From a virus, in IMG/VR virus record IMGVR_UViG_3300024432_000058, positions 1-27,961 of that record: DNA of 27,961 bases. One strand, written 5' to 3'. Every line of letters starts with the position of its first letter. Positions within the stretch are counted from its first letter, which is position 1. The notes beneath the pieces are model-generated. The model saw only the letters and a program-made list of their open reading frames with translations, made no database searches and was not told the DNA's origin. The translations under genes were made by a program, and so were the position numbers. Below are positions 2,729-27,901 of this stretch, piece by piece.

Positions 2729-3427
2729 ATGGGACAAATTTATATTTTAGAAAATCAGAAAAATGGCAAATGCTACGTCGGTCAGACTGTTTATAATGTT
2801 AAAAAACGGTTATACAGTCATATGAAGAGTAAATATCCGATAGGAAATGCACTAAAAAAATACGGGATAGATAATTTTGATACACATACTATGCAATGTC
2901 CAGAGTATTTATTGGATGTTTGCGAAGTAGGCCTTATCGAATTGCTAAATTGCTTGGCTCCTAATGGATATAACTTGGATCTAGGCGGGCATAAACATAA
3001 ACACCGCTCTCTGGCAACAAGGAAAAAATTATCAGAGGCGAATAAAGGCAAAAAGCGATCAGAAGAAACAAGGAAACTGATGTCTGAAAATCATGATGAT
3101 CGATCAGGTGAAAAGAATCCTATGTTTGGAGTACATATATGTGGAAAAAATCATCACTTTTATGGTAAACACCATAGTGAAACAACGAAAAAACTGATGT
3201 CTGACAATAATAAAGGAAAAAATAATCCTATGTATGGCAGAACAGGTAAAAATCACCCTAGAGCAAGAAAAGTACAATGCATAGAAACTAACGAGACTTT
3301 CGATACAATTACAGAAGCAGCTATAAAATATGATGTATGTCGACACGGTATTGGTGCATGTTGCAAAGGTAAAAGAAAAACAGCTGGTGGATATCACTGG
3401 GAATATAAAGAGAAAGGAAAGGAGTAA
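2729..3427 (+). CDS. GIY-YIG homing endonuclease 2
   Basis: A 232-residue paralogue of the endonuclease at 227, placed between the large terminase and portal genes. Nuclease residues are Tyr5, Tyr16-Val-Gly, Arg27 and Glu66. Three NUMOD3-like motifs (about 92-170) and a C-terminal NUMOD1-like segment (about 180-228, ending KTAGGYHWEY) follow. The middle of the nuclease domain ([16 protein letters not shown]) belongs to a different subtype from endonucleases 1, 3 and 4, and is nearly identical in DNA to the gene at 12928. AGGAGTAAT occurs both before its start (2719-2727) and before the portal start (3420-3428). The gene looks intact and probably mobile. Confidence 0.93.
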   Translation: MGQIYILENQKNGKCYVGQTVYNVKKRLYSHMKSKYPIGNALKKYGIDNFDTHTMQCPEYLLDVCEVGLIELLNCLAPNGYNLDLGGHKHKHRSLATRKKLSEANKGKKRSEETRKLMSENHDDRSGEKNPMFGVHICGKNHHFYGKHHSETTKKLMSDNNKGKNNPMYGRTGKNHPRARKVQCIETNETFDTITEAAIKYDVCRHGIGACCKGKRKTAGGYHWEYKEKGKE

Positions 3428-4882: not shown

Positions 4883-5542
4883 ATGAGCTGTATTTATATT
4901 TTAGAAAATTCTATAAATGGCAAGAAATACGTGGGACAAACTACCAAGACATTTAAAACTCGATTACAGCAACATTTGAAGAGTAAATTTGTAATAGGAA
5001 ATGCATTAAAAAAATATGGCCTCGATAATTTCAAACAGTACATTTACTCTGGAATACCAGAAAATTTATTAGATTATTGCGAAACAGAAATGATTAAAAG
5101 ATTGGATACTATAGCGCCAAATGGATATAATCTCGAAAGCGGAGGACATAAAAACAAACACGCCTCTGAAGAATCAAAGAGGAAGATGTCAGAGGCACAA
5201 AGTGGCAAACATCTTTCGAAAGAAACAAAAAGAAAAATATCTGAGGCACTTAAAGGAAGGATGTTTTCAGAAGAACATAAGAAAAAAATATCGGAATCAA
5301 AAAAAGGTGAAAAAAACCCTAATTTTGGACAGAAAGGTGAAAAGAATCCTAATTTTGGAAAACATCCTTCCGCCGAAACACGGAAAAAAATATCAGAAGC
5401 GCATAAAGGAATGATATTTTCTGAAGAACATAGGAAAAAAATATCTGAAGCAAATAAAAATCCATCAGAAGAAACAAGAAAAAAAATATCGGAAGCAAGA
5501 AAAAAGTATTGGGCAAATAAAGGGAAATGTAAAGGTAATTAA
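4883..5542 (+). CDS. GIY-YIG homing endonuclease 3
   Basis: A 219-residue GIY-YIG endonuclease with Tyr5, Tyr16-Val-Gly, Arg27 and Glu67. After the nuclease domain come about six tandem NUMOD3 motifs (residues about 93-205), each near S-x-E-x-[KR]-x-K-[IM]-S-E-A, ending in a [13 protein letters not shown] tail. It lacks the NUMOD1-like C-terminus of endonucleases 1 and 2, so it is a different architecture. The NUMOD3 repeats are also similar at DNA level, which favours expansion and contraction by recombination. It is bracketed by a 24-bp imperfect direct repeat (4868-4891 and 5530-5553, 22 of 24 identical) covering ribosome binding site and start codon. Confidence 0.93.
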
Positions 5543-5769: not shown

Positions 5770-6471
5770 ATGGCACAAATATACGTACTAGAAAATAAGA
5801 ATAATGGAAAAACTTATGTCGGACAAACTATAAGAACTTTCAAACAGCGGTTGAAATGTCACATGAGAGGAAAACAGTATATTGATAACGCACTCAAAAA
5901 ATACGGGATCGATAATTTCAAGCAGTATGTTTATTCTGGAATACCTGAAGAATTACTCGACGAATTCGAAACAGCAATGATAAAAAGATTGGATAGTATA
6001 GAATCAGGGTATAATCTCGAAAGCGGAGGAAATAAAAATAAACATCTTTCTGAAGCAACGAAAAAGAAAATTAGTGAAGCGTTGAAAGGCAAACACCGTT
6101 CACAAGAAACAAAAAAGAAAATATCGGAAGCACGTAAAGGAATGGTGTTTTCAGAAGAAACAAAAAAGAAGATTAGGGATAATCATAAAGGCATGAAAGG
6201 AAAAAATCATTCGCAAGAAACAAAACAAAAAATGTCTGAATCAGGAAAAGGAAAAAATAATCCCTTTTACGGGAAACATCATTCTCCAGAAACAAAACAA
6301 AAAATTTCCGCGGCAATGAAAGGCGAAAAACATTGGAATTATGGAAAACATCTTTCTGAAACAACAAAAAGAAAATTATCGGAATCACATAAAGGAATGG
6401 TGTTTTCTGAAGAACATAAGAAAAAAATATCAGAAGCTAAAAAGGGAAAGCATCGTTCTGAAGAATTGTAA
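5770..6471 (+). CDS. GIY-YIG homing endonuclease 4
   Basis: A 233-residue GIY-YIG endonuclease with Tyr5, Tyr16-Val-Gly, Arg27 and Glu67. It has the longest NUMOD3 array in the window, about seven tandem copies over residues 90-233, and the protein ends abruptly within the last copy (HRSEEL). That ending suggests loss of an original C-terminus or repeat contraction. TGTAAAGGTA occurs just before the start (5754-5763) and again across the stop codon (6467-6476). It lies directly upstream of the scaffold gene. The start is supported by AAAGG nine bases upstream and by the conserved opening MAQIYVLEN. Confidence 0.92.
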   Translation: MAQIYVLENKNNGKTYVGQTIRTFKQRLKCHMRGKQYIDNALKKYGIDNFKQYVYSGIPEELLDEFETAMIKRLDSIESGYNLESGGNKNKHLSEATKKKISEALKGKHRSQETKKKISEARKGMVFSEETKKKIRDNHKGMKGKNHSQETKQKMSESGKGKNNPFYGKHHSPETKQKISAAMKGEKHWNYGKHLSETTKRKLSESHKGMVFSEEHKKKISEAKKGKHRSEEL

Positions 6472-6498: not shown

Positions 6499-7188
6499 AT
6501 GAAACTAGACATGAGTCAAATTAAGCGGTTTTTGAAAGACAACGCCGATGAAGCGGCAGTGCAAGTACTGATAGAAGAAATGGTGGAAGAAATGGTGCCT
6601 ACAATGGATGACCAACTTGCTGGACTTACAAAAGATAATGCGTACGAACTTTTTATTTGCAAACACCAAAAATTATTGGATGCATTTAATAAAAAAGTTT
6701 CGGGGGCAATAGGTAAAAATTGGGAAGAGCACTTTGACGCAAAATATGAAGAAAAATTTTTGAAAGAAAACCCGCCAGAAAGCGACCTTGAAAAAAAGGT
6801 GAGAGCTCTGGAACTTAAAGCGATGAAGTCAGAAAAAAGAGCAGACAAGGCAGTGCTTAAAGCTTCTGCCATAAAGCGAATTAGCGAATTAGGTCTATCA
6901 GATAAATCTTTAGAAATGATCGACTGGCTAATCGCAGACGATGAAGAAAGTACTTCTAATAGATTAAATACTTTGTTAGAATTTCAGAATGGAATTACTA
7001 CAAAAGTAAATGAAAAAATCTTAGAAGAAAATGCGATGAACCCAGAAACTGGAAAAAAAGCTCTAGAATCGAATAAAGAAAAACTCATTGCACAGTATAA
7101 CGAGTTAGAAAAGACTGGAACTGCTGGATCTCCAACGATTCACGCAGAATTATTAGCTCTCGGCGATAGGATTAGGAGTCTCAAATAA
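6499..7188 (+). CDS. Capsid scaffold protein (DUF4355/gp20-like)
   Basis: Probable internal scaffold that guides procapsid assembly and is then lost. The 229-residue protein is charged and almost wholly helical, with a likely coiled coil at about residues 95-130 (ESDLEKKVRALELKAMKSEKR) and the segment ASAIKRISELGLSDKS typical of DUF4355-like phage scaffolds. The C-terminus (AELLALGDRIRSLK) is a short basic helix, the usual capsid-binding end. It stands two genes after the portal and directly before the major capsid protein, the standard place. AAGGAG lies at 6485-6490. The assignment rests on composition, partial motif similarity and position. Confidence 0.78.
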   Translation: MKLDMSQIKRFLKDNADEAAVQVLIEEMVEEMVPTMDDQLAGLTKDNAYELFICKHQKLLDAFNKKVSGAIGKNWEEHFDAKYEEKFLKENPPESDLEKKVRALELKAMKSEKRADKAVLKASAIKRISELGLSDKSLEMIDWLIADDEESTSNRLNTLLEFQNGITTKVNEKILEENAMNPETGKKALESNKEKLIAQYNELEKTGTAGSPTIHAELLALGDRIRSLK

Positions 7189-7189
7189 T

Positions 7190-7271
7190 GGGCATATATT
7201 TATGTTTATATCGGGATTCCAGAAACAAATGGGCATATATTTATGTTTATATCGGGATTCCAGAAACAAAT
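7190..7271. repeat. 41-bp tandem duplication
   Basis: Two exact copies of a 41-base unit (7190-7230 and 7231-7271) beginning GGGCATATATTTATG lie just after the scaffold stop codon. The unit derives from the Y-V-Y-x-G-I-P-E part of an endonuclease gene. Because 41 is not a multiple of three, the duplication itself shifts the frame. The copies are identical, so the event appears recent or is an assembly artefact. Confidence 0.93.
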
Positions 7272-7380
7272 GTTAGTCTATTGCTATAAAAAAGCGATGA
7301 TAAAAAGATTAAATAGTGGTTATAATTTATAACCACGTGGTAATAAAAATAAACACCCTTTAAAAAGAAGAGGGTTAATC

Positions 7381-12914: not shown

Positions 12915-12932
12915 AAAGGAGAAAATCGTGAG
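12915..12932. repeat. Left copy of the 18-bp direct repeat flanking endonuclease 5
   Basis: AAAGGAGAAAATCGTGAG contains the ribosome binding site and GTG start of endonuclease 5. A copy with one mismatch lies at 13520-13537 and contains the ribosome binding site and GTG start of the following structural gene. The arrangement is what insertion of the endonuclease at a gene start would leave. Confidence 0.85.
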
Positions 12933-13536
12933 TTGCATTTACATTCTAGAGAATAAAATTAACGGTAAGTGCTACACAGGGCAAACCACACAATCAGTAA
13001 AAGTACGGATGAAAGGTCATATGAGGAGCAAACAGTATATTGGTAACGCTCTTAGAAAATATGGTATTCAAAATTTCGATACACATACTATGCAATGTCC
13101 AGAGTACTTATTAGATGTTTGTGAAGTAGGTCTTATTAAATTGCTTAATTGTATGGCGCCAAGTGGATATAATTGTGATCTAGGTGGAAATAAAAATAAG
13201 CATTTTTCTGAAGAACATAAGAAAAAAATATCAGAATCAAAAAAAGGAATGATATTTTCAGAAGAACATAGAAGAAAACTGTCAGAAGCACATAAAGGAA
13301 AACACCATTCGCAAGAAACGAAGAAGAAAATATCAGAGGCAAATAAAGGTGAAAAAAATGGTATGTTTGGAAAGAAAGTTTCAGAAGAAACTAGAAAACT
13401 GATGTCTGCTAATCATGCCGATGTTTCTGGTGAAAAAAATGGTATGTTTGGACGTTATATACCACAATCAAAAGAAGTAAATTTAAGAAGGTCTGAGACT
13501 ATGAAAAAGTATTGGGCAAAAAGGAGAATATCGTGA
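12928..13536 (+). CDS. GIY-YIG homing endonuclease 5 (GTG start)
   Basis: A 202-residue GIY-YIG endonuclease starting with GTG twelve bases after the beginning of AAAGGAG. Nuclease residues are Tyr5, Tyr16-Thr-Gly (Thr in place of the Val of the paralogues), Arg27 and Glu66. Four to five NUMOD3 motifs follow (about 90-170), and the tail [14 protein letters not shown] resembles that of endonuclease 3. The middle of the nuclease domain is nearly identical in DNA to endonuclease 2 (2879-2936 against 13077-13134), while the opening is of the MSCIYILEN class shared with endonuclease 3. The gene is thus a mosaic. Its stop overlaps the next gene's start as GTGA. Confidence 0.92.
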
Positions 13537-14915: not shown

Positions 14916-16259
14916 ATGCTAAGTTTTGAAATTACTTCGAAAGGCGATTTAGATAAAAGTGATAATTTAGAACGTGCTAAAAAAAAAGCGCTTCCAGTAA
15001 TTGCAGAATTCGTAAAAGGGAAATCTAAAGATTTGTGTCCTGTAAAAACAGGTCACTTGAAAGATTCTATAAAATCAGAAGTGAAAGGTGATATCGCCTT
15101 TTTAGGAACTGATGTTAATTACGCTTGTATATTTGGCGCGGGGGCGCATATAACAACAAAAAAGGCTAGTAAGCGCATAGGAAAGATAAAAATTGGTGAT
15201 ATGGTTTTAACACAAACTGGAGAATACAAAAAAGTTGTAAATATAAATAAATTCAGAGCAATTAGAAAACCACGCTTAATAAATATAGAAGTTGAATGGA
15301 GAAAAGGAAAATCTCATAAATTAATAGTTACAGAAGATCATAAAATATTAATAAATAGAGAAAATCGTAATAAATGGGTAATGGCAAAAGATATGTTATT
15401 AACTGATAAAATATATTCACGTAAAAAAATAGCTTATAATAAAAAATATAAAGTATGTGAATATTGTCAAAAAGAAAGAAAAGCACGAAATAAGAAGTAT
15501 TGTAGTATTGAATGTAGAACAATGGCTTGGAAAATTAAGAACCCTCATACTGGAATGAAACGAACCCAAGTATCAAAATTAAAAATGAGAAAAGCAAGAC
15601 AAAAATATCATGTTCAATATCCAGAGAAACATATAAATAGAATACTTGCACAGAAAGGATATAGAACTAAACATGAAAAAGATGTACAAGCATGGCTTGA
15701 TTTGAGAAATATAAAATATAAAACACAATTCCAAATAGGCAAACGATATGTAGATTTTTTTATACCAAAAAATAATGAAGTTTTTGAGGCAGACGGAGCA
15801 TATTGGCATAGTAATCAACAGATAGATATTCAAAGAGATAGGGAATTATTAAATATCAATAATAAATTAAAAATAACTCATATTCATTTTTATGATAAAC
15901 GATTTACAAATATATTTGATGCAAATCCATTACCTAATGTTCATTACATTGTATGTAATCCCGATATAAAAAGTTTTGTTGATAAAAATGTATTTGAGCA
16001 AAAAAAAATAGTATCATTAACAAAATGGACTTATAAAAATAAAAAACATAAAAACGATGGTTTGGGCACAAATTTATACGATTTGAGTGTTGAAGATATT
16101 CATTCATTTTATGCAAATGGCATGTTAGTTTCTAATAGCTACGTAGAATATGGAACTTCTAGACAATCGCCTCAATCTTTTTTACGTAAGGCAATAGATA
16201 TGCATAAAAAAGAAATTCTAGAAATTTTTAGCCAAAAAATAATTAAGGCATGGAAGTAA
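14916..16259 (+). CDS. HK97 gp10-like neck/tail protein interrupted by an intein
   Basis: A 447-residue precursor. The exteins are residues 1-70 and 408-447. Joined, they make a 110-residue protein with LCPVKTGHLKDSIKSEV and, across the junction, VNYA/SYVEYGTSRQSPQSFLRKAI, the hallmark Y-A-x-Y-V-E-[FY]-G-T-x-x-x-x-x-Q-x-F-L-R of the HK97 gp10 family, which joins the head connector to the tail. The junction interrupts this conserved segment. The intein is therefore expected to splice out for virion assembly. The start abuts the preceding stop, with AAAGGAG at 14900-14906. Extein assignment is firm; actual splicing is not shown. Confidence 0.88.
   Translation: MLSFEITSKGDLDKSDNLERAKKKALPVIAEFVKGKSKDLCPVKTGHLKDSIKSEVKGDIAFLGTDVNYACIFGAGAHITTKKASKRIGKIKIGDMVLTQTGEYKKVVNINKFRAIRKPRLINIEVEWRKGKSHKLIVTEDHKILINRENRNKWVMAKDMLLTDKIYSRKKIAYNKKYKVCEYCQKERKARNKKYCSIECRTMAWKIKNPHTGMKRTQVSKLKMRKARQKYHVQYPEKHINRILAQKGYRTKHEKDVQAWLDLRNIKYKTQFQIGKRYVDFFIPKNNEVFEADGAYWHSNQQIDIQRDRELLNINNKLKITHIHFYDKRFTNIFDANPLPNVHYIVCNPDIKSFVDKNVFEQKKIVSLTKWTYKNKKHKNDGLGTNLYDLSVEDIHSFYANGMLVSNSYVEYGTSRQSPQSFLRKAIDMHKKEILEIFSQKIIKAWK
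15126..16136 (+). mobile_element. Intein with zinc-finger, NUMOD3-like and Vsr-like nuclease parts
   Basis: A 337-residue intein, host-protein residues 71-407. The splicing domain shows Cys71 at the N-terminal junction, a block A-like IGKIKIGDMVLT, the block B T-x-x-H (Thr139-Glu-Asp-His142), block F DLSVEDIHSFYANGMLV with His396, terminal Asn407 and Ser408 as the +1 nucleophile. The penultimate residue is Ser rather than the common His. The inserted endonuclease has four cysteines (181, 184, 196, 200) suggesting a zinc finger, a NUMOD3-like helix (about 208-231), and a PD-(D/E)XK/Vsr-like core with VDFFIP (Asp280) and FEADGAYWH (Glu291, Asp293, His298). This resembles the Vsr-like EDxHD homing endonucleases typified by I-Bth0305I. 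Cleavage activity is inferred from these residues. Confidence 0.88.
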
Positions 16260-16262
16260 AAC

Positions 16263-16664
16263 ATGGCATCAGAATTTCTAATTTCCGCTCTTAGAGCTCG
16301 TTTGTTAAACGACACGGATGTGACTGATATTACTAACACAAGAGTATACTATTTAGAATCTCCCGAAAAGCCCACATATCCCTATCTGCTAATTCATGAG
16401 ATAGATGATTCGGATGAGAACTCTATCATAGGTAAAGATGGCAGCAGTCCCCGTATACAAATAGACTCGGTGGACAAGAATGAAAGCGTCGCTACGGTAA
16501 AAACATTGGATTTAGCAGTAAGATCTTCATTAAATGATTTTTCAGGTGATATGGATGGCATTCAGGTGAATTGGACCGTAAGAGGTGGTTCAAAAGTATT
16601 CAGAGAACCAGAAAACATATTACGGATAACGAGAGATTTTATTTGTTTTTACAACAGACCGTAA
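16263..16664 (+). CDS. Tail completion protein (DUF3168/SPP1 gp17-like)
   Basis: A 133-residue protein with the features of tail completion or tail-to-head joining proteins: an N-terminal helix with ISALRARLLNDTDVTDIT, then R-V-Y-x-x-x-[SA]-P-E-K-P-T-Y-P-Y-L-L-I (about 27-45), D-x-x-x-D-E-N-S, a beta-helix-beta layout and a final strand ILRITRDFICFYNRP. The Y-P-Y-[IL] motif near residue 40 is the most useful signature. It terminates the tail end so that it can dock to the neck. Placement after the gp10-like gene and before the tail tube is standard. It lacks a good ribosome binding site, so coupling to the upstream stop (16257-16259) is likely. Confidence 0.75.
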   Translation: MASEFLISALRARLLNDTDVTDITNTRVYYLESPEKPTYPYLLIHEIDDSDENSIIGKDGSSPRIQIDSVDKNESVATVKTLDLAVRSSLNDFSGDMDGIQVNWTVRGGSKVFREPENILRITRDFICFYNRP

Positions 16665-16678
16665 AGGAGGACGGAAAT

Positions 16679-17494
16679 ATGCTTACTGTAAAAATTTCAA
16701 TTACAACTCGCTGTAATTCAAGATGTAAAACTTGTCCAATTTGGAAATTGCAACCCCAAGATATGGCTTATGATGATTTTGTTAAAATATGGGATAAATT
16801 AAATTCTAACCCACACATTAATAAAATTATTTTGAACAACACAGGGGAGCTTTATTTGCATCCCGATTATTTGAAAATATTAAAGTACATAGAAAATAAT
16901 AGTAAAAAGTACATTGTCATGACAACTAACGGCAGTTGGTTTCCTTATATACCAAAAATTGATAATATCATTATTAGTTTTAATGGCGGCACTAAAGATT
17001 CCTATAACCGTATGACTGGGCTGGACTTTCATAAAGTATTTGCTAATATAAGGAATAATTTTGAAAATATGATGAGGAAAATAAGCAAGATTGAGATACA
17101 CTGTTTGATATGCGAATTAAATAAAAATACTGAACGAGAGTTTGTTCGGCTATGGAAACGATTACCTGCGAAACTTAGAATTTCTTATAAATACGACAAC
17201 CAATTTGGCGCAGATTTAACAATTGACAGATATAAAGAATCTAAAAGAATATTTTGTGATTACCTGAATATATTAAGTATATCGCCAACTGGGCAAGCGC
17301 TTATGTGTGCTCACGATTTTTCCTCCTCGACGAGTTGGGGAAATATTTTACAAGATAGTGTATTTGATCTTATGACACATCCTTTAAGAGAAAAAAAAAG
17401 ATTAGAGCATTCAGATAGTAAATTTCTAGGATTATGTGAAAAATGCAATCATAACCAGTGCACCGATGGGCTCGTTTTTGAGGCGTGCAGATGA
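16679..17494 (+). CDS. Radical SAM enzyme with SPASM/twitch-like C-terminus
   Basis: A 271-residue radical SAM protein. The cluster-binding motif is CNSRCKTC (Cys12, Cys16, Cys19); the rest of the barrel includes TGELYLHPDYLKIL and VMTTNGSW. The C-terminal part has Cys193, Cys210, and Cys253-x2-Cys256-x4-Cys261 with a late Cys270, and the context ISPTGQALMCAHDF, which fits an auxiliary iron-sulfur (SPASM or twitch) domain of the kind used for peptide or sugar modification. ATG at 16679 is chosen because AAAGGAGG stands at 16663-16670; an upstream extension would overlap the tail completion gene. The stop overlaps the glycosyltransferase start as ATGA. The substrate is unknown; a virion protein is the contextual guess. 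Confidence 0.87.
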   Translation: MLTVKISITTRCNSRCKTCPIWKLQPQDMAYDDFVKIWDKLNSNPHINKIILNNTGELYLHPDYLKILKYIENNSKKYIVMTTNGSWFPYIPKIDNIIISFNGGTKDSYNRMTGLDFHKVFANIRNNFENMMRKISKIEIHCLICELNKNTEREFVRLWKRLPAKLRISYKYDNQFGADLTIDRYKESKRIFCDYLNILSISPTGQALMCAHDFSSSTSWGNILQDSVFDLMTHPLREKKRLEHSDSKFLGLCEKCNHNQCTDGLVFEACR

Positions 17495-18498
17495 AACTAG
17501 CAATTCAATGGATGAACAAATTTGATGCGATATCTAATAGTTTTGGATATGCGACGCATCAGAAAAATATATCTGAAGCAATGCAAAGAAATGGAGTCGA
17601 AATTTCTGATGACGCAGATATCGCGTTTTTTATAGTTCCTCTCTGTCATTATGTGCCAGTTAAAAATAAAATCAATATTGTATACACGATGTACGAATAC
17701 AGCTCTCTTCCCGCAAATTGGATCAACAAGCTAAAGGATATAGATTTATTGATTGTACCTTGCAGTCATAACAAAGAATTATTTGGTAGATATACAGATG
17801 TTCCAATCTCAGTATGTTTAGAGGGGACTAATACGAACTATTATAAATATGTAGAGAGAAATTCTAAGCCAAATCAATTCATATGGCTTTGGCTGGGAGC
17901 TAACAACCTGAGAAAAGGTTATCTTCCGCTGATTCAAGCTTGGAACTTCTGGGCTAAATATCATCCAGATGATTTTTTAATAATTAAGACAACACCCAAC
18001 ATGGTATCTACGAAAGAGGACGTGAGAAGATTTAAGAATCATGTTATGATAGATTCTAGAAAATTACCACTAGACTCTTTAGACTCTCCACCTAACATGT
18101 TTGATGTTTATAAATACGCTAATGCATTCATTATGCCGACAATGGGAGAGGGATTTTGTTTGCCATTAGTCGAAGCTCTTGCTACAGGATTACCTTGTAT
18201 ATACACAAACTGGTCAGGACCTACAGATTATATGAATTCTGATATAGGTTATCCAGTAGATTATGAGTTGGTAGAAGTTTCTACAGCAGAAGAAATCGGT
18301 TATAATAAAATGGAGCATTGGAGCCGAGCCGCATATGCAGATATAAACTCTATATTGAGGCAAATGGCAACTATCTATTTTAATTATGATATAGCACTAG
18401 AAAAAGGAAGAAGAGGTGCTGAAATGGTAAGAAAGAAATTAACTTGGGATATCAGTGCGAAGAATTTAATCAAAACGATTAAAGATTTTGTAAGATAA
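17491..18498 (+). CDS. Glycosyltransferase, GT4-like (GT-B fold)
   Basis: A 335-residue glycosyltransferase of the GT-B fold. The N-terminal domain (to about 120) opens with a strand MKLAIQWM and a GYATHQKNISEAM helix. The C-terminal Rossmann half starts at WLWLGANNLRKGYLPLIQAW (about 130-149). The donor-binding region is MPTMGEGFCLPLVEALATG (about 214-232), with the E-x7-E pattern of GT4 enzymes, followed by WSGPTDYM. A C-terminal helix (KLTWDISAKNLIKTIKDFV) is typical. It transfers an activated sugar to an unknown acceptor. It overlaps the radical SAM gene by ATGA, so the two are translated together. No signal peptide or membrane segment is visible, which implies a cytoplasmic acceptor. Confidence 0.88.
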   Translation: MKLAIQWMNKFDAISNSFGYATHQKNISEAMQRNGVEISDDADIAFFIVPLCHYVPVKNKINIVYTMYEYSSLPANWINKLKDIDLLIVPCSHNKELFGRYTDVPISVCLEGTNTNYYKYVERNSKPNQFIWLWLGANNLRKGYLPLIQAWNFWAKYHPDDFLIIKTTPNMVSTKEDVRRFKNHVMIDSRKLPLDSLDSPPNMFDVYKYANAFIMPTMGEGFCLPLVEALATGLPCIYTNWSGPTDYMNSDIGYPVDYELVEVSTAEEIGYNKMEHWSRAAYADINSILRQMATIYFNYDIALEKGRRGAEMVRKKLTWDISAKNLIKTIKDFVR

Positions 18499-18597: not shown

Positions 18598-19005
18598 ATG
18601 GCAGAGACATACTTAGATGGAACCGATGGTTCCTGTAAATTAAACACTGCTACATTCCCAGTTACAAATTGGGAGTATACTGGTAATATTGTTTCTGAGG
18701 AGACAACACCTGTGGGTTCATCTGATAGAACATTTGAATCAACTATTAGAGAAGGTTCGGGATCCGTTACATTTAAGCTAGACGCAGATCAAGCTAGTCA
18801 AAAAGTATTAATCGATCAATTATTATCAGCTAACACACCAGAGAAAGTTTTATTACAATTATACCAGGATTTGACAGGCGCCGCGCAATTATACTTTTCA
18901 GCGATAATTACAAGCATCGCGTTTCCGAAAAGCGCCGCTGCGATCGATACAGTGACTATATCTTTTATTAAAACTGGCGTACTTTCACATGTTCCAACAA
19001 CGTAA
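18598..19005 (+). CDS. Tail tube protein, short form
   Basis: A 135-residue major tail tube candidate, the subunit that polymerises around the tape measure protein. The sequence is a compact beta fold: WEYTGNIVSEETTPVGSSDRTFESTIREGSGSVTFKLD, a helix SQKVLIDQLLSANTPEKVLLQLYQDL, and the pair AQLYFSAIITSIAFPKSAAAIDTVTISFIKTG. The last segment (alanine-proline linker, then a T-x-S-F strand) is typical of siphovirus tube proteins. It is clearly paralogous to the protein at 19635. The ribosome binding site AGGAGG lies seven bases before ATG, inside the same 12-base block used by the capsid gene, indicating high expression. Confidence 0.8.
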   Translation: MAETYLDGTDGSCKLNTATFPVTNWEYTGNIVSEETTPVGSSDRTFESTIREGSGSVTFKLDADQASQKVLIDQLLSANTPEKVLLQLYQDLTGAAQLYFSAIITSIAFPKSAAAIDTVTISFIKTGVLSHVPTT

Positions 19006-19365: not shown

Positions 19366-19638
19366 ATGACTACAAAACAACTTGAAAAAAAAATCTCTTT
19401 TTTAAAGGAAAAGGTTTTTCCTATTATTTGGATAATAATGTTTGGAATAATAACAACTTGCTCTATTGGAATATTAAGTAGTATAGATAATAGGCTTACT
19501 TCCATTGAATTAACTCTCGACAGAATAGAACAAATTGTTATAAATCTTTCTGCTACCCAGGGAGATCTACAAGCTGATAGCGAAGGTAATAAGATAGATG
19601 TAAAAGCATTACGCAAAAATAAGGAGAACACAAAATGA
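19366..19638 (+). CDS. Small membrane protein with a cytosolic or periplasmic helix
   Basis: A 90-residue protein with a basic N-terminus (MTTKQLEKKISFLKEK), one hydrophobic segment (about residues 17-40, VFPIIWIIMFGIITTCSIGILSSI) and a charged amphipathic helix (IDNRLTSIELTLDRIEQIVINL). That layout resembles small phage membrane proteins such as holin accessory or XhlA-like factors, but the order (membrane segment first) differs from classical XhlA. GGAGAAAA lies before the ATG. The stop overlaps the start of the second tail tube gene as ATGA, so it is part of the late operon. Function is unknown; lysis assistance or superinfection exclusion are possibilities. Confidence 0.65.
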   Translation: MTTKQLEKKISFLKEKVFPIIWIIMFGIITTCSIGILSSIDNRLTSIELTLDRIEQIVINLSATQGDLQADSEGNKIDVKALRKNKENTK

Positions 19639-20381
19639 GTGAATATATTAATGGAACAGATGGTCGGTGTTTGCTGTCAGAAGCAAATTTCCAAGTCACT
19701 TCATGGGAATACACGGGCAACATAGTCTCTGAGGAGACAACTACGATAGGTTCATCTGATAGAACATTTGAATCAACTGCACGCGAGGGGAGTGGATCCC
19801 TGACGTTCAAATTAGATGTTGATGATGCTTCTCAAGTAATTGTAATTAACCAACTGTTGTCAAGTAATACACCAGAAAAAGTTTTATTACAACTGTACCA
19901 AGAGCTTGAAGTTACGACCCTAACATTTACTGATGATAGTGGCAACACAAATGATAATTATGGCGGATATTACGCAGATCTTTACGTAGGTCATGATATA
20001 CATAGATTTTGGTGGGATGTAGCAGACGGCGACGCAGCTCCTGCAGATCCTGGCACTCTACACGAAATTGATATTGCTACTGATGACGATGAAGACGCAG
20101 TAGCAGCTGCAACATCTGCAGTAATACATGCTGTAAGTGGTTTATCAAGCGATTATTCTAGTGGAGCAAGTTTTAATGTGACGCATGAATTAGGGGCAGA
20201 AGGCAACGCCTCAGAGAATACATCGGTGATGACAGTAACAATTCTCGTCGAAGGAGCGCAGTTATATTTTTCTGCTGTTTTGACAAGTATAGCTTTACCA
20301 AAATCAGCCGCTGCGATTGATACAGTAACAGCGTCTTTTATCAAAACAGGAACACTTATACATGTTCCAACAACAGTTTAA
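19635..20381 (+). CDS. Tail tube protein paralogue with an inserted domain
   Basis: A 248-residue paralogue of the protein at 18598. Residues 1-92 and about 207-248 align with the short form almost throughout: WEYTGNIVSEETT, SSDRTFEST, EGSGS, NTPEKVLLQLYQ, then AQLYFSA and LPKSAAAIDTV. Between them, after LYQELE, is an insert of about 112 residues starting TTLTFTDDSGNTND and containing HRFWWDVADGDAA, LHEIDIATDDDEDAVAA, a helix, and a final strand TSVMTVTI. The insert resembles a beta-alpha add-on domain common in phage structural proteins. The protein probably forms tail tube rings with the domain projecting outward. ATG overlaps the preceding stop; AAGGAG lies at 19621-19626. Confidence 0.8.
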   Translation: MSEYINGTDGRCLLSEANFQVTSWEYTGNIVSEETTTIGSSDRTFESTAREGSGSLTFKLDVDDASQVIVINQLLSSNTPEKVLLQLYQELEVTTLTFTDDSGNTNDNYGGYYADLYVGHDIHRFWWDVADGDAAPADPGTLHEIDIATDDDEDAVAAATSAVIHAVSGLSSDYSSGASFNVTHELGAEGNASENTSVMTVTILVEGAQLYFSAVLTSIALPKSAAAIDTVTASFIKTGTLIHVPTTV

Positions 20382-23371: not shown

Positions 23372-24121
23372 ATGACGAGGATATTATACAAAAACAACTG
23401 GGATAATTATACTATCGATTCAAATTCTGAGGACGCAAATTATCCAGCTATAAATACAGTAGACACCAGTCTTTCGAAAGTTTGGCACAGTGTCGGAGTC
23501 AGCGCTGAATGGATATCCTTAGACTGTGGCGCAGGAGTGACTATTAATCCAACTGTGGCAGTCATAGCTGGGCACAACATTTCTGAATCCGCAGCAACCA
23601 TTAAAATACAAGGAGATGATGACTCTGATTTTAGTAGTCTAGCCGTTGACGAGAGTTTTACACACGCAGAAGGCAATATGGTTAAATTTTTCACTGGATC
23701 TGCTTTAAGATATTGGAAATTTTTAATTACAGATGAGACTAATAATTCTGGTTATATATCAATTGGCAGATTATTTTTGGGTACTTATCTAGAAACTGAT
23801 AATGCGATTTTTATTAGCTTTCCTTATAATATAGATGATACATCACTAACTGATACATCACTAACTGGCCAATTGTACGGAGACGAGGGTGTAATTTTAA
23901 GAAAATATGATTTGAGTATACCATTATTGAGCGATACAAATAGGAAAGCTCTTGATGTTATGTATAAATCTGTAAAGGTAGTAAAACCAATATTTTTCGT
24001 TTTCGATCATTCCGATCTTACAACAATAACTCCCTTATATTCGTCATTTACAAAATATGGTTACAGTCATGGAAAATCGAATTTGTGGAATTTGAAGCTT
24101 TCGATCAAAGAGGCTAAATAA
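23372..24121 (+). CDS. Distal tail protein with discoidin-like domain
   Basis: A 249-residue protein following the tape measure gene. Residues about 15-140 resemble a discoidin (F5/8 type C) jelly-roll: YPAINTVDTSLSKVWHS, the strand EWISLDCGAGVTINPTVAVIAGHN, and FTGSALRYWKFLITDET. The remainder (about 145-249) is beta-rich and may form the tube-end attachment region. This type of domain is common in phage tail-tip proteins and often binds cell-surface glycans. A 15-base tandem repeat (23837-23866) gives DTSLT-DTSLT near residue 157. The start follows TAGGAGATG. The stop overlaps the next micro-gene's ATG. An exact distal-tail (Dit) role is inferred from position. Confidence 0.68.
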   Translation: MTRILYKNNWDNYTIDSNSEDANYPAINTVDTSLSKVWHSVGVSAEWISLDCGAGVTINPTVAVIAGHNISESAATIKIQGDDDSDFSSLAVDESFTHAEGNMVKFFTGSALRYWKFLITDETNNSGYISIGRLFLGTYLETDNAIFISFPYNIDDTSLTDTSLTGQLYGDEGVILRKYDLSIPLLSDTNRKALDVMYKSVKVVKPIFFVFDHSDLTTITPLYSSFTKYGYSHGKSNLWNLKLSIKEAK

Positions 24122-25135: not shown

Positions 25136-27901
25136 ATGAGAAATAACTTTTTTGATAGATATGATTGTGAATCACTTACACCTCCTATGGTGCTTGATGA
25201 AACTACACCTGTTGAAACAAATGTAGTTTTTAATAGATCAGCGCCAATAGATAGGGGTTCTTGCGAAGTAGCCACTAGTCCCATGGTTTTCGATGAAGAG
25301 GTACCAATACTTTATGATGCATTATGGGTGAGAAGCGATGAGCAAGCTCATAATGAAGAATACAGTTATAAATGTACAAAAAATATTGCTGCTGGCGATG
25401 CTGCTATAGTTGATTTAGTTGATGTAGCAGCAACAGATGATATGCATGGATTAGTTGCTGGCCAGACTTATACATTCTCAGCGTGGGTATATATACCTTC
25501 AGGTGGGATTTTTGGAAGCGAAGTTACCTTAATCATCTACGATTATCAAGGTGGTTGGGCCCCAACAATAACTGCAGCTGCTAATGTGTATGACGCTTGG
25601 CAGAAGGTAACTGTTACGAGAACTATAAGAGCTGCAGCGACAGGTATTATTGTGAGATTTATGGCCGCATCTTCAGCCTCTATCAACGAATATTTCTATG
25701 TTGATGATGTAAAACTTGATCATGCACGTGGTGGAAAATTTAGTTATAGATTAACAAAGACAATAGCAGCAGGAACTGCAGGTTCGGTACTTCTTACTGA
25801 CTCTTTAAACACTGCCGATATGCATGGCTTACTAGCAGGGCATAAATATACATTCGGAGCTTGGGTATATATTCCTTTAGGTGGGATCAAAGGTTCAGAA
25901 ATAACATTTCAAATAGGTGATTATGTAGCATCATGGGATTACACATCACAAGCTGCAACTGACACTTATGATGCCTGGCAATATGTAGAAGTTACTCATG
26001 ATGTAGATGCAGATGCTACAGGTATCGTAATAAAAATAGAAGTGGATTCGGACGCGGCAACTGGCGAATATTTCTTTGTTGATAAATTTCTACTTAATGA
26101 TTGGTTGGATTGGATCAATAAGCCATTTTCTAAGAAGAAGATTCTTGTAGAAATTTCATCTGGCTTAGCTGAAGATTTTTGGCTTAGTGAAGAGCCAGGA
26201 ATATGGTACAACAAATTAACGGTTTGGGTCCCAGATAAAAAATTTGGTTTTGGATATGGTGTTTTTGGATACGGCTCTTTTGGGAATGATGGTACTGATA
26301 CACTAGGCCATAATGCTGTATATTATCAAGTTGGCAGTGTGAAAATAAGTGGTGTAATTTATACTGAATATGACAAATATGATGATTGTGTTGCTAATAG
26401 TGAAAGTTGGTATTACGACATTATAACAACTAAATTATATTTGCACTTCCTTAATGATACTGCACCCTGGGAGCAAACTGGAGCCTGGGAGCGAACTACA
26501 ATAAGCATAGGCTTAGTAGCTGGTTTTTCGAATCATGCAGGTTACTATAATGATATATATTACGATGCAAGAGTTATATCTATTCCAAATATCTCATATA
26601 GGAAAAATTGGTTGTTTTTTGGTATTGCAAGATCTGCAGGTGGGGAAGTAACTCTTGATAATTCTGATGGTTATTTTGATAATTTTGCAACTCATGATAT
26701 TTTCGGCCATAAAATAGTTTTTAGGTTTGGGGTCGACGATATTGCACATGCTCAATATTTAGAGTTAGCTAACTTTTATATAGATAAAATAACTGTAACA
26801 AAAACAACATTCTCAATAGCTTTAAATGATAAGCGTTCTTTCCTACAGAAAAAGATACCGATAAATGTTTATGATTCTACTACTTATCCAGATATAAAAG
26901 ATACTAATGAGAATAAACCAATCCGTTTAGGATATGGAACTAACAAAAAAGTGCCTTGTGTTTGCACTAATGAAGAAGAGGCTATAGGTGGAGGTATTGA
27001 TTACACGTTTAAGATTTGTGATGTAGCAAATCCAGCTTATGCAATATCGGCAATAACAACTGTATATATTGACGATGTTGTAGAGGTACCAAAAGCTACT
27101 AATTTAAACACTGCAACATTCACAATAGCCAGTGGTGGTAATTACACAAAGGGAGATAAGGTTACTTGCACTTATACTGGGTATACTGATGGCGGAGTAA
27201 TCGATAATGCACTCGACGTCATAGCTGATCTGCTTAACGAATTTAATAACGACGTTTATAATTCAACTAATTTTAATACAACTGCATGGGCAATTGCAAA
27301 AGCCCTAGCATATGATATTGGTTTCCCTATAGAAAAAGAAACTGTGGGCTCAGCTATCACAAAAATTGCAAATACAGTGCATGGCTCATTTTTAATACAA
27401 GGTGATGATAGATACTCTTTTAAAATATTTGATGAAGATACAGCTGCAGTAAAAACTATTACAGGAGAAGAAATATTAAAATTAACAAAAGCCGAATATG
27501 ACACTAAGCGATATTTGACAAGATTCGAAATATTATATGATAGAGACTGGGATTCTGGATTTTTTAGAAGAATAATCGAAGAATCTAATGAAGAGGCAAT
27601 ATTTACTAAATATGGAGTCTATAGAGAGAAAGAATTTGAGACGTTACTGATTTCTGCTGACGACAGTTCTTCTTTAGCCTCAAAAATATCAAAAACAACT
27701 TCTGAAGTAGTTCCCTATTTCTCGTTCACTACGAAGTCGCAAAATTTTGATTTAATGCTAACAGATTTAGTGAATGTAGAATTAAATAGAGTAACGAAAG
27801 AGATGTATGGGACTGTTAAATTAGAAATAGTAGGTATAGTAAAAGATATGGCTAAATTTACTACTACTATTATTGGTCGATACATAAAGAATGTAGATTA
27901 G
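25136..27901 (+). CDS. Large tail/baseplate hub protein with two carbohydrate-binding-like repeats
   Basis: A 921-residue protein, the largest distal tail candidate. Two tandem domains (about residues 76-196 and 200-320) share YSYKCTKNIAAG / FSYRLTKTIAAG, then G-x-x-Y-T-F-[SG]-A-W-V-Y-I-P, a G-[SG]-E-[VI]-T strand, Y-D-A-W-Q-x-V-x-V-T, and EYF[YF]VD near the end. These are typical of CBM4/9-type carbohydrate-binding modules. The C-terminal part (about 480-921) has strand-rich sequence with RSAGGEVTLDNSDGYFDNF, ALNDKRSFLQKKIPINVYDS and RLGYGTNKKVPCVC, resembling tail hub proteins at the tail tip. No peptidase motif was recognised. It is likely the tail-tip hub that binds surface glycans. The start is without a strong Shine-Dalgarno. 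Confidence 0.68.
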   Translation: MRNNFFDRYDCESLTPPMVLDETTPVETNVVFNRSAPIDRGSCEVATSPMVFDEEVPILYDALWVRSDEQAHNEEYSYKCTKNIAAGDAAIVDLVDVAATDDMHGLVAGQTYTFSAWVYIPSGGIFGSEVTLIIYDYQGGWAPTITAAANVYDAWQKVTVTRTIRAAATGIIVRFMAASSASINEYFYVDDVKLDHARGGKFSYRLTKTIAAGTAGSVLLTDSLNTADMHGLLAGHKYTFGAWVYIPLGGIKGSEITFQIGDYVASWDYTSQAATDTYDAWQYVEVTHDVDADATGIVIKIEVDSDAATGEYFFVDKFLLNDWLDWINKPFSKKKILVEISSGLAEDFWLSEEPGIWYNKLTVWVPDKKFGFGYGVFGYGSFGNDGTDTLGHNAVYYQVGSVKISGVIYTEYDKYDDCVANSESWYYDIITTKLYLHFLNDTAPWEQTGAWERTTISIGLVAGFSNHAGYYNDIYYDARVISIPNISYRKNWLFFGIARSAGGEVTLDNSDGYFDNFATHDIFGHKIVFRFGVDDIAHAQYLELANFYIDKITVTKTTFSIALNDKRSFLQKKIPINVYDSTTYPDIKDTNENKPIRLGYGTNKKVPCVCTNEEEAIGGGIDYTFKICDVANPAYAISAITTVYIDDVVEVPKATNLNTATFTIASGGNYTKGDKVTCTYTGYTDGGVIDNALDVIADLLNEFNNDVYNSTNFNTTAWAIAKALAYDIGFPIEKETVGSAITKIANTVHGSFLIQGDDRYSFKIFDEDTAAVKTITGEEILKLTKAEYDTKRYLTRFEILYDRDWDSGFFRRIIEESNEEAIFTKYGVYREKEFETLLISADDSSSLASKISKTTSEVVPYFSFTTKSQNFDLMLTDLVNVELNRVTKEMYGTVKLEIVGIVKDMAKFTTTIIGRYIKNVD

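Follow-up and report, generated by a model that had tools for sequence, protein, structure and literature searches.

The virus fragment analysed here carries, inside its tail gene module, a coupled pair of genes for a radical SAM (rSAM) enzyme and a GT4-family glycosyltransferase (GT). We consider it somewhat probable that they form a late, cytosolic cassette by which an unusual sugar is tailored and joined to a virion protein; the first candidate for this protein is the tail tube. A more specific version is offered tentatively: that the phage makes the sugar with an rSAM resembling BtrN and places it on the tail tube, that a sister phage sulfates it, and that the genes occupy a recurring insertion point. 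Below, "the window" means the whole of this 27,961-base (28-kb) fragment, which comes from an IMG/VR virus record.

The pair lies between the tail terminator gene gp17 and a tail tube gene, and the entire region is on the + strand. The upstream border is the tail terminator (tail completion) gene gp17 (16263..16664, +; PF11367, 45.7 bits), which is preceded by a gene for an HK97-gp10-like protein. The rSAM gene (16679..17494, +) starts with ATG and encodes 271 aa, with a PF04055 domain and a C-terminal domain classed as one-cluster Twitch. Its strong Shine-Dalgarno sequence, AAAGGAGG (16663..16670, +), was read directly from the sequence and overlaps the gp17 stop. The gene for the GT4-family (GT-B) glycosyltransferase (17491..18498, +) follows with an ATG that overlaps the rSAM stop as ATGA. 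Mechanical ORF calling places its start at GTG 17485, but ATG 17491 is preferred because of the ATGA overlap and because the GT of the sister phage L008 (see below) starts at the equivalent residue. The downstream border is the tail tube (major tail) gene TT1 (18598..19005, +; phrog_10528 major tail protein, 4.5e-5), whose product ends in HVPTT, and a tail tube paralogue, TT2 (19635..20381, +), carries an insertion of about 112 aa and ends in HVPTTV. An earlier note on this DNA, made from the letters alone, had described an rSAM protein with the motif CNSRCKTC that overlaps a GT4 by ATGA and lies, in the same direction, between tail completion and tail tube genes. Pfam scores above the cut-offs and inspection of the sequence confirm the first point, and gp17 upstream with the two tail tube genes downstream, all on the + strand, confirms the second.

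The 99-bp gap between the GT and tail tube genes was searched for a structured or regulatory RNA; its folding is ordinary (z 0.20) and it has no Rfam match. Promoter scans at the cassette gave matches only at the level of shuffled sequence, none of them convincing. Terminator scans at the cassette also gave nothing convincing, those above the shuffled level being mostly intragenic.

Several other features of the window were recorded. The HK97-gp10-like tail protein (14916-16259) is split by an intein at nt 15126-16136 (C71 to N407, with Ser after) that contains a DUF559-type nuclease-like domain; after splicing the protein is 110 aa, in agreement with the intein-free L008 orthologue. Five GIY-YIG/NUMOD3 homing endonuclease ORFs (227-946, 2729-3427, 4883-5542, 5770-6471 and 12928-13536) are interspersed with the terminase, portal, scaffold and connector genes, where Rfam gives no intron match. 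A perfect 41-bp tandem duplication (7187-7272) lies 3' of the scaffold gene and 5' of the major capsid gene. Downstream tail-region ORFs (23372-24121 and 25136-27901) contain carbohydrate-binding domains (F5/8 type C; CBM_4_9) and are probably receptor-binding or decoration proteins. Hints of the host come from MCP relatives (29-40% identity), which are present in genomes of the same class as the Lachnospiraceae MAG described below, and from the terminase, whose nearest relative is that of a Thermoanaerobacterium phage (47%); these relationships are suggestive.

The GT is assigned to PF00534 (37.4 bits against a cut-off of 26.4) and to phrog_2170 (1.7e-30). It has the EX7E motif EGFCLPLVE and is predicted to be soluble. 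Scans of viral contigs with the rSAM or the GT as single-protein queries gave no match, and relatives were found with MCP-anchored and motif-anchored scans of viral contigs. The exact GT motif MGEGFCLP occurs in five of all the viral contigs scanned, namely L008 and four others. The order gp17-GT4-second GT-tail tube is found in L038, L039 and L041; in L040 the tail tube gene follows GT4 and no gp17 is detected upstream. Among annotated phages, tblastn places a GT4 in the terminator/tail-tube slot in the Arthrobacter Kitkat group and DanielleIgnace, and in the Microbacterium phage Magritte. As in the window, Kitkat, KellEzio, DanielleIgnace and Magritte have a GT4 of the phrog_2170 family in the order tail terminator, GT, (small ORF), major tail protein; unlike in the window, their GT stands alone, and no rSAM was found in the genomes of Kitkat, DanielleIgnace and Magritte. 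The neighbourhood search that the earlier note had proposed therefore returns a GT4 in the slot of the window, L008, L038, L039, L041, Kitkat, DanielleIgnace and Magritte. These neighbourhoods lend support to its reading of the pair as late-module genes whose target is a virion protein, the first candidate being the tail tube.

Not all relatives occupy this position. GT4 homologues adjoin the major capsid gene in phiPsal1 and Mae-JY09 and lie near the portal gene in S-CBS4; those of S-EIVl and TJE1 lie elsewhere. The earlier note had named homologues scattered away from tail genes as evidence against its reading, and for the GT family this is found in part: distant GT4 genes of Streptomyces and Rhodococcus phages and of some cyanophages are away from tail and other structural genes. 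These distant homologues count against a virion-glycosylation cassette, as does the occurrence of the rSAM in only one sister. Virion glycosylation does not depend on such adjacency either, since the published GTs of mycobacteriophage Che8 are encoded at a distance from its tail genes. Parsimony on the GT tree gives three changes of the slot label, at least two of them forced by well-supported branches, and the label clusters more strongly than it does after shuffling (2/500). It is likely from the tree, although not proven, that GT4 arrived in the slot independently more than once, the reservation being that the changes may be gains or losses.

The complete cassette has one sister. The independent contig L008 (9.5 kb) carries, in order, connector genes, gp10, gp17, rSAM, a gene for a 222-aa protein, GT and tail tube. 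Since the pair, its order and its flanks recur there, the pairing is not due to chance. The rSAM, GT and tail tube proteins have diverged together between the window and L008 (45%, 55% and 53% identity), which argues that the pair is kept and not merely passing through. The slot is empty in five MCP relatives whose records reach across it (L010, L017, L020, L028 and L030), in which connector and tail-terminator genes are followed by the tail tube region, and we therefore regard it as a cargo insertion point. Neither the rSAM nor the GT4 was found anywhere in the records, many of them short, of 23 other MCP relatives. In one related phage the slot holds other cargo, a 62-aa zinc-ribbon-like ORF and a 172-aa ORF (L021:10114-10802).

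The 222-aa protein encoded between the rSAM and GT genes of L008 is likely, but not established, to be a sulfotransferase. Three weak matches are concordant: Sulfotransfer_1 (20.0 bits) and Sulfotransfer_2 (20.1 bits), both below the cut-off of 22, and the galactose-3-O-sulfotransferase family phrog_3347 (E 0.002). In our reading, its KTGGTT stretch resembles a PAPS-binding loop. The predicted model of the protein has a pLDDT of 34. If it is a sulfotransferase, the L008 cassette has three activities typical of glycan building.

Its abundance and its shared gene direction make the neighbouring tail tube the most likely acceptor; TT1 would be the first candidate and TT2 the second. Outside the insertion of TT2 the two proteins are 75-80% identical. 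Two tail-tube-like genes are also carried by three of the MCP relatives (L010, L017 and L030). Tail tube C-termini of phages with a GT in the slot often have Thr or Ser as the last residue, and C-terminal glycans have been published for mycobacteriophage capsid and tail tube proteins (PMC12619734). As a mark of the acceptor, the C-terminal Thr/Ser was rejected: it is present also in relatives without the GT and does not discriminate.

The chemistry of the cassette depends on the class of the rSAM. This protein scores 30.0 bits against PF04055 (cut-off 29.5), and its CNSRCKTC motif supplies the CX3CX2C cysteines at residues 12/16/19. Comparison of the window protein with those of L008 and of a cellular homologue (L049, below) shows that the CX3CX2C cysteines are invariant, as are four auxiliary ones, C193, C210, C253 and C256; the window's C261 and C270 are conserved in neither of the other two. 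The earlier note had seen a SPASM-like cysteine set. Only four auxiliary cysteines are conserved, and the rSAM is accordingly classed, by its sequence, as a one-cluster Twitch enzyme and not as a full SPASM enzyme. Assignment as a full SPASM peptide-modifying rSAM, which needs about seven auxiliary cysteines for two clusters, was rejected on this count.

A profile of the three rSAM sequences searched against the whole PDB matches BtrN and nothing else (E 3.8e-7). The match is weak and covers mostly the Twitch half, in which all four auxiliary cysteines align. In BtrN the four Twitch cysteines ligate the auxiliary cluster (PMC9012708). NCBIfam models show weak similarity of the rSAM to many rSAM families, every cut-off being missed by far. 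An AlphaFold model built from two sequences is mediocre (pLDDT 61), with a usable barrel and a poor C-terminal half, and its fold matches (SuiB, BlsE, EpeE, DesII, MoaA, BtrN and SpeY) are for this reason taken only as a range of possibilities. They mix peptide enzymes (SuiB, EpeE) with sugar and nucleoside enzymes (BlsE, DesII, BtrN, SpeY) and do not decide between them.

The nearest cellular homologue (33% identity over the full length) is encoded in a Lachnospiraceae MAG (CANQTG010000070.1; loci L049/L060), where it is the last gene of a polysaccharide locus in the order EpsG, GT8, GT4, Wzx-type flippase, rSAM. It has the RxSYxYDNQxG and CAHD motifs and the cysteines in common with the phage rSAM, and differs in its chromosomal EpsG/GT8/GT4/Wzx setting as opposed to a phage tail module. 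Profiles with and without this protein were used to search about 300 Lachnospiraceae genomes and about 400 of the phylum, and nine further loci were examined. Their neighbours include genes for PseB, PseC, PseG, NeuB, NeuC, WecE-type transaminases, KdsB-like proteins and GT2 enzymes. In one Lachnospiraceae locus (L091:4477-6597, +) a NeuB/PseI-like sialic acid synthase domain is fused to a Twitch-like rSAM, with PseF/PseG-like genes adjoining.

At least two glycan genes lie nearby in eight of the ten Lachnospiraceae rSAM relatives but in one of 20 control loci, a contrast (one-sided hypergeometric probability of about 6e-5, calculated by hand from the counts) that is somewhat flattered in favour of the test group by a glycan-gene panel built from the test loci themselves. 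The controls were loci of other SPASM proteins in genomes of the same family, scored with the identical panel and with self-hits excluded; the sole positive one (L112) is itself a NeuB/NeuC locus. Together with the BtrN match and the glycan-locus relatives, this contrast supports a role for the rSAM in sugar chemistry (glycan or nucleotide-sugar) and not in peptide modification.

A surface polysaccharide locus around the nearest homologue also favours an alternative: either late during infection or in the lysogenic state, the cassette would alter the envelope of the host, by masking receptors or converting the serotype, and the rSAM would make a host-polysaccharide sugar. Phage GTs that change serotype are known, as cited in PMC12619734. 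We consider this unlikely. No flippase, polymerase or membrane-bound GT (gtrA/gtrC type) is present between gp17 and the tail tube gene, no membrane segment is found in the rSAM or in the GT, and conversion genes do not usually lie inside the late tail operon, the place taken here in several phage groups.

The earlier note had assumed peptide modification, in which the rSAM would modify a residue of a virion protein (by epimerisation, cross-linking or oxidation) and the GT would glycosylate that residue or the protein. An abundant structural protein does adjoin the pair, rSAM/SPASM folds include peptide enzymes, two of which (SuiB and EpeE) appear among the matches of the low-confidence model, and the weak NCBIfam similarities include YydG and other RiPP maturases. 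A curated peptide-maturase assignment was nevertheless rejected, the best NCBIfam match reaching 57 bits against the 380 required, and in a different family. The sequence profile matches only BtrN, and the cellular relatives lie in glycan loci and not in RiPP loci. On this evidence peptide modification is quite unlikely, and the relatives and their contexts favour glycan or nucleotide-sugar chemistry instead.

It is very unlikely that the two enzymes hypermodify phage DNA by building a sugar on a modified base. Two other phage rSAMs do lie in apparent DNA-hypermodification surroundings: in MT835491.1 (L003:7014-8894) the neighbours of the rSAM are a TET-associated glycosyltransferase (TAGT) and ParB, before the terminase, and in another locus (L032:9270-13834) they are a thymidylate-synthase-like gene and one for a thymidylate kinase. 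The MT835491.1 locus resembles the present one in that a phage GT adjoins an rSAM, and differs from it in its TAGT-family GT, its ParB neighbour, its position before the terminase and its distant rSAM. Both of these rSAMs are more distant from that of the window (27-30% identity over the first ~125 aa) than is the polysaccharide-locus rSAM. Scans of the window proteins, from a 28-kb fragment, gave no match to TAGT or TET, nor to a thymidylate-synthase-like gene. In addition, the cassette sits in the tail module and has a sulfotransferase-like partner in L008. A further distant rSAM was noted in the head-gene region of Methanomicrobiales virus vir524 (L002:8989-9729; BK063669.1), shortly 5' of a gene for a ChaB-domain protein.

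The least likely reading is that of a recently acquired metabolic moron with no specific link to the tail, the slot being a merely permissive insertion point in a late operon: the different small cargo in L021, the five empty relatives and the GC content of the rSAM gene (0.319, below the window mean of 0.352) would fit it, but GT4 recurs in the exact slot in separate phage groups, and rSAM, GT and tail tube have co-diverged between the window and L008.

For the virion-glycosylation cassette we can suggest the following course. The rSAM and GT4 would be expressed late and act in the cytosol. The substrate of the BtrN-like Twitch rSAM would be a sugar, either a nucleotide sugar or one already in place, which it would oxidise, epimerise or otherwise tailor. 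The GT4 would transfer a sugar to a virion protein whose synthesis coincides with its own, in all likelihood the tail tube subunit of the adjacent gene, and in L008 the sulfotransferase-like enzyme would add sulfate. The benefit may be, for example, shielding of the particle or altered adsorption. If the reading of the slot is correct, the gap between the terminator and tail tube genes is a recognisable place in which to seek glycosylated tails in phages that are not related to one another, the cultivable Arthrobacter phages among them. The rSAM would be a phage representative of a still poorly understood group of rSAM enzymes found in bacterial polysaccharide and nonulosonate-type loci, and its chemistry could become testable.

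Two known systems invite comparison. BtrN, a Twitch rSAM dehydrogenase of butirosin biosynthesis, resembles the phage rSAM as a one-cluster Twitch enzyme whose four cysteines align. The two are distant, the substrate of BtrN is an aminocyclitol, and BtrN is neither phage-encoded nor coupled to a GT4. The second system is that of the mycobacteriophages Che8, Corndog and Myrna, whose virion glycosylation was reportedly described by Freeman et al. in 2023. According to three papers (PMC12363180, PMC12619734 and PMC11600133), phage GTs (Che8 gp108-110, Corndog gp38 and those of Myrna) glycosylate capsid and tail tube proteins. The statement of the earlier note that no standard phage system has this form thus holds in part: there are published cases of phage GTs that glycosylate capsid and tail tube, and these systems are without an rSAM. 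In the open-licence literature we found no description of an rSAM tied to virion glycosylation or to a phage sulfotransferase, or of the terminator/tail-tube slot as a recurrent home of GT4. The Che8 enzymes are GT2/GT25 by Pfam, one of them with a methyltransferase domain, and include neither an rSAM nor a sulfotransferase. They are not homologous to the window GT4, with which Che8 gp108 gives no alignment. What the two have in common would be the principle, phage-encoded GTs acting on the phage's own capsid and tail tube proteins; virion glycosylation itself is already known from a few mycobacteriophages, and what we have not found described is a cassette of this kind that includes an rSAM (together with the putative sulfotransferase).
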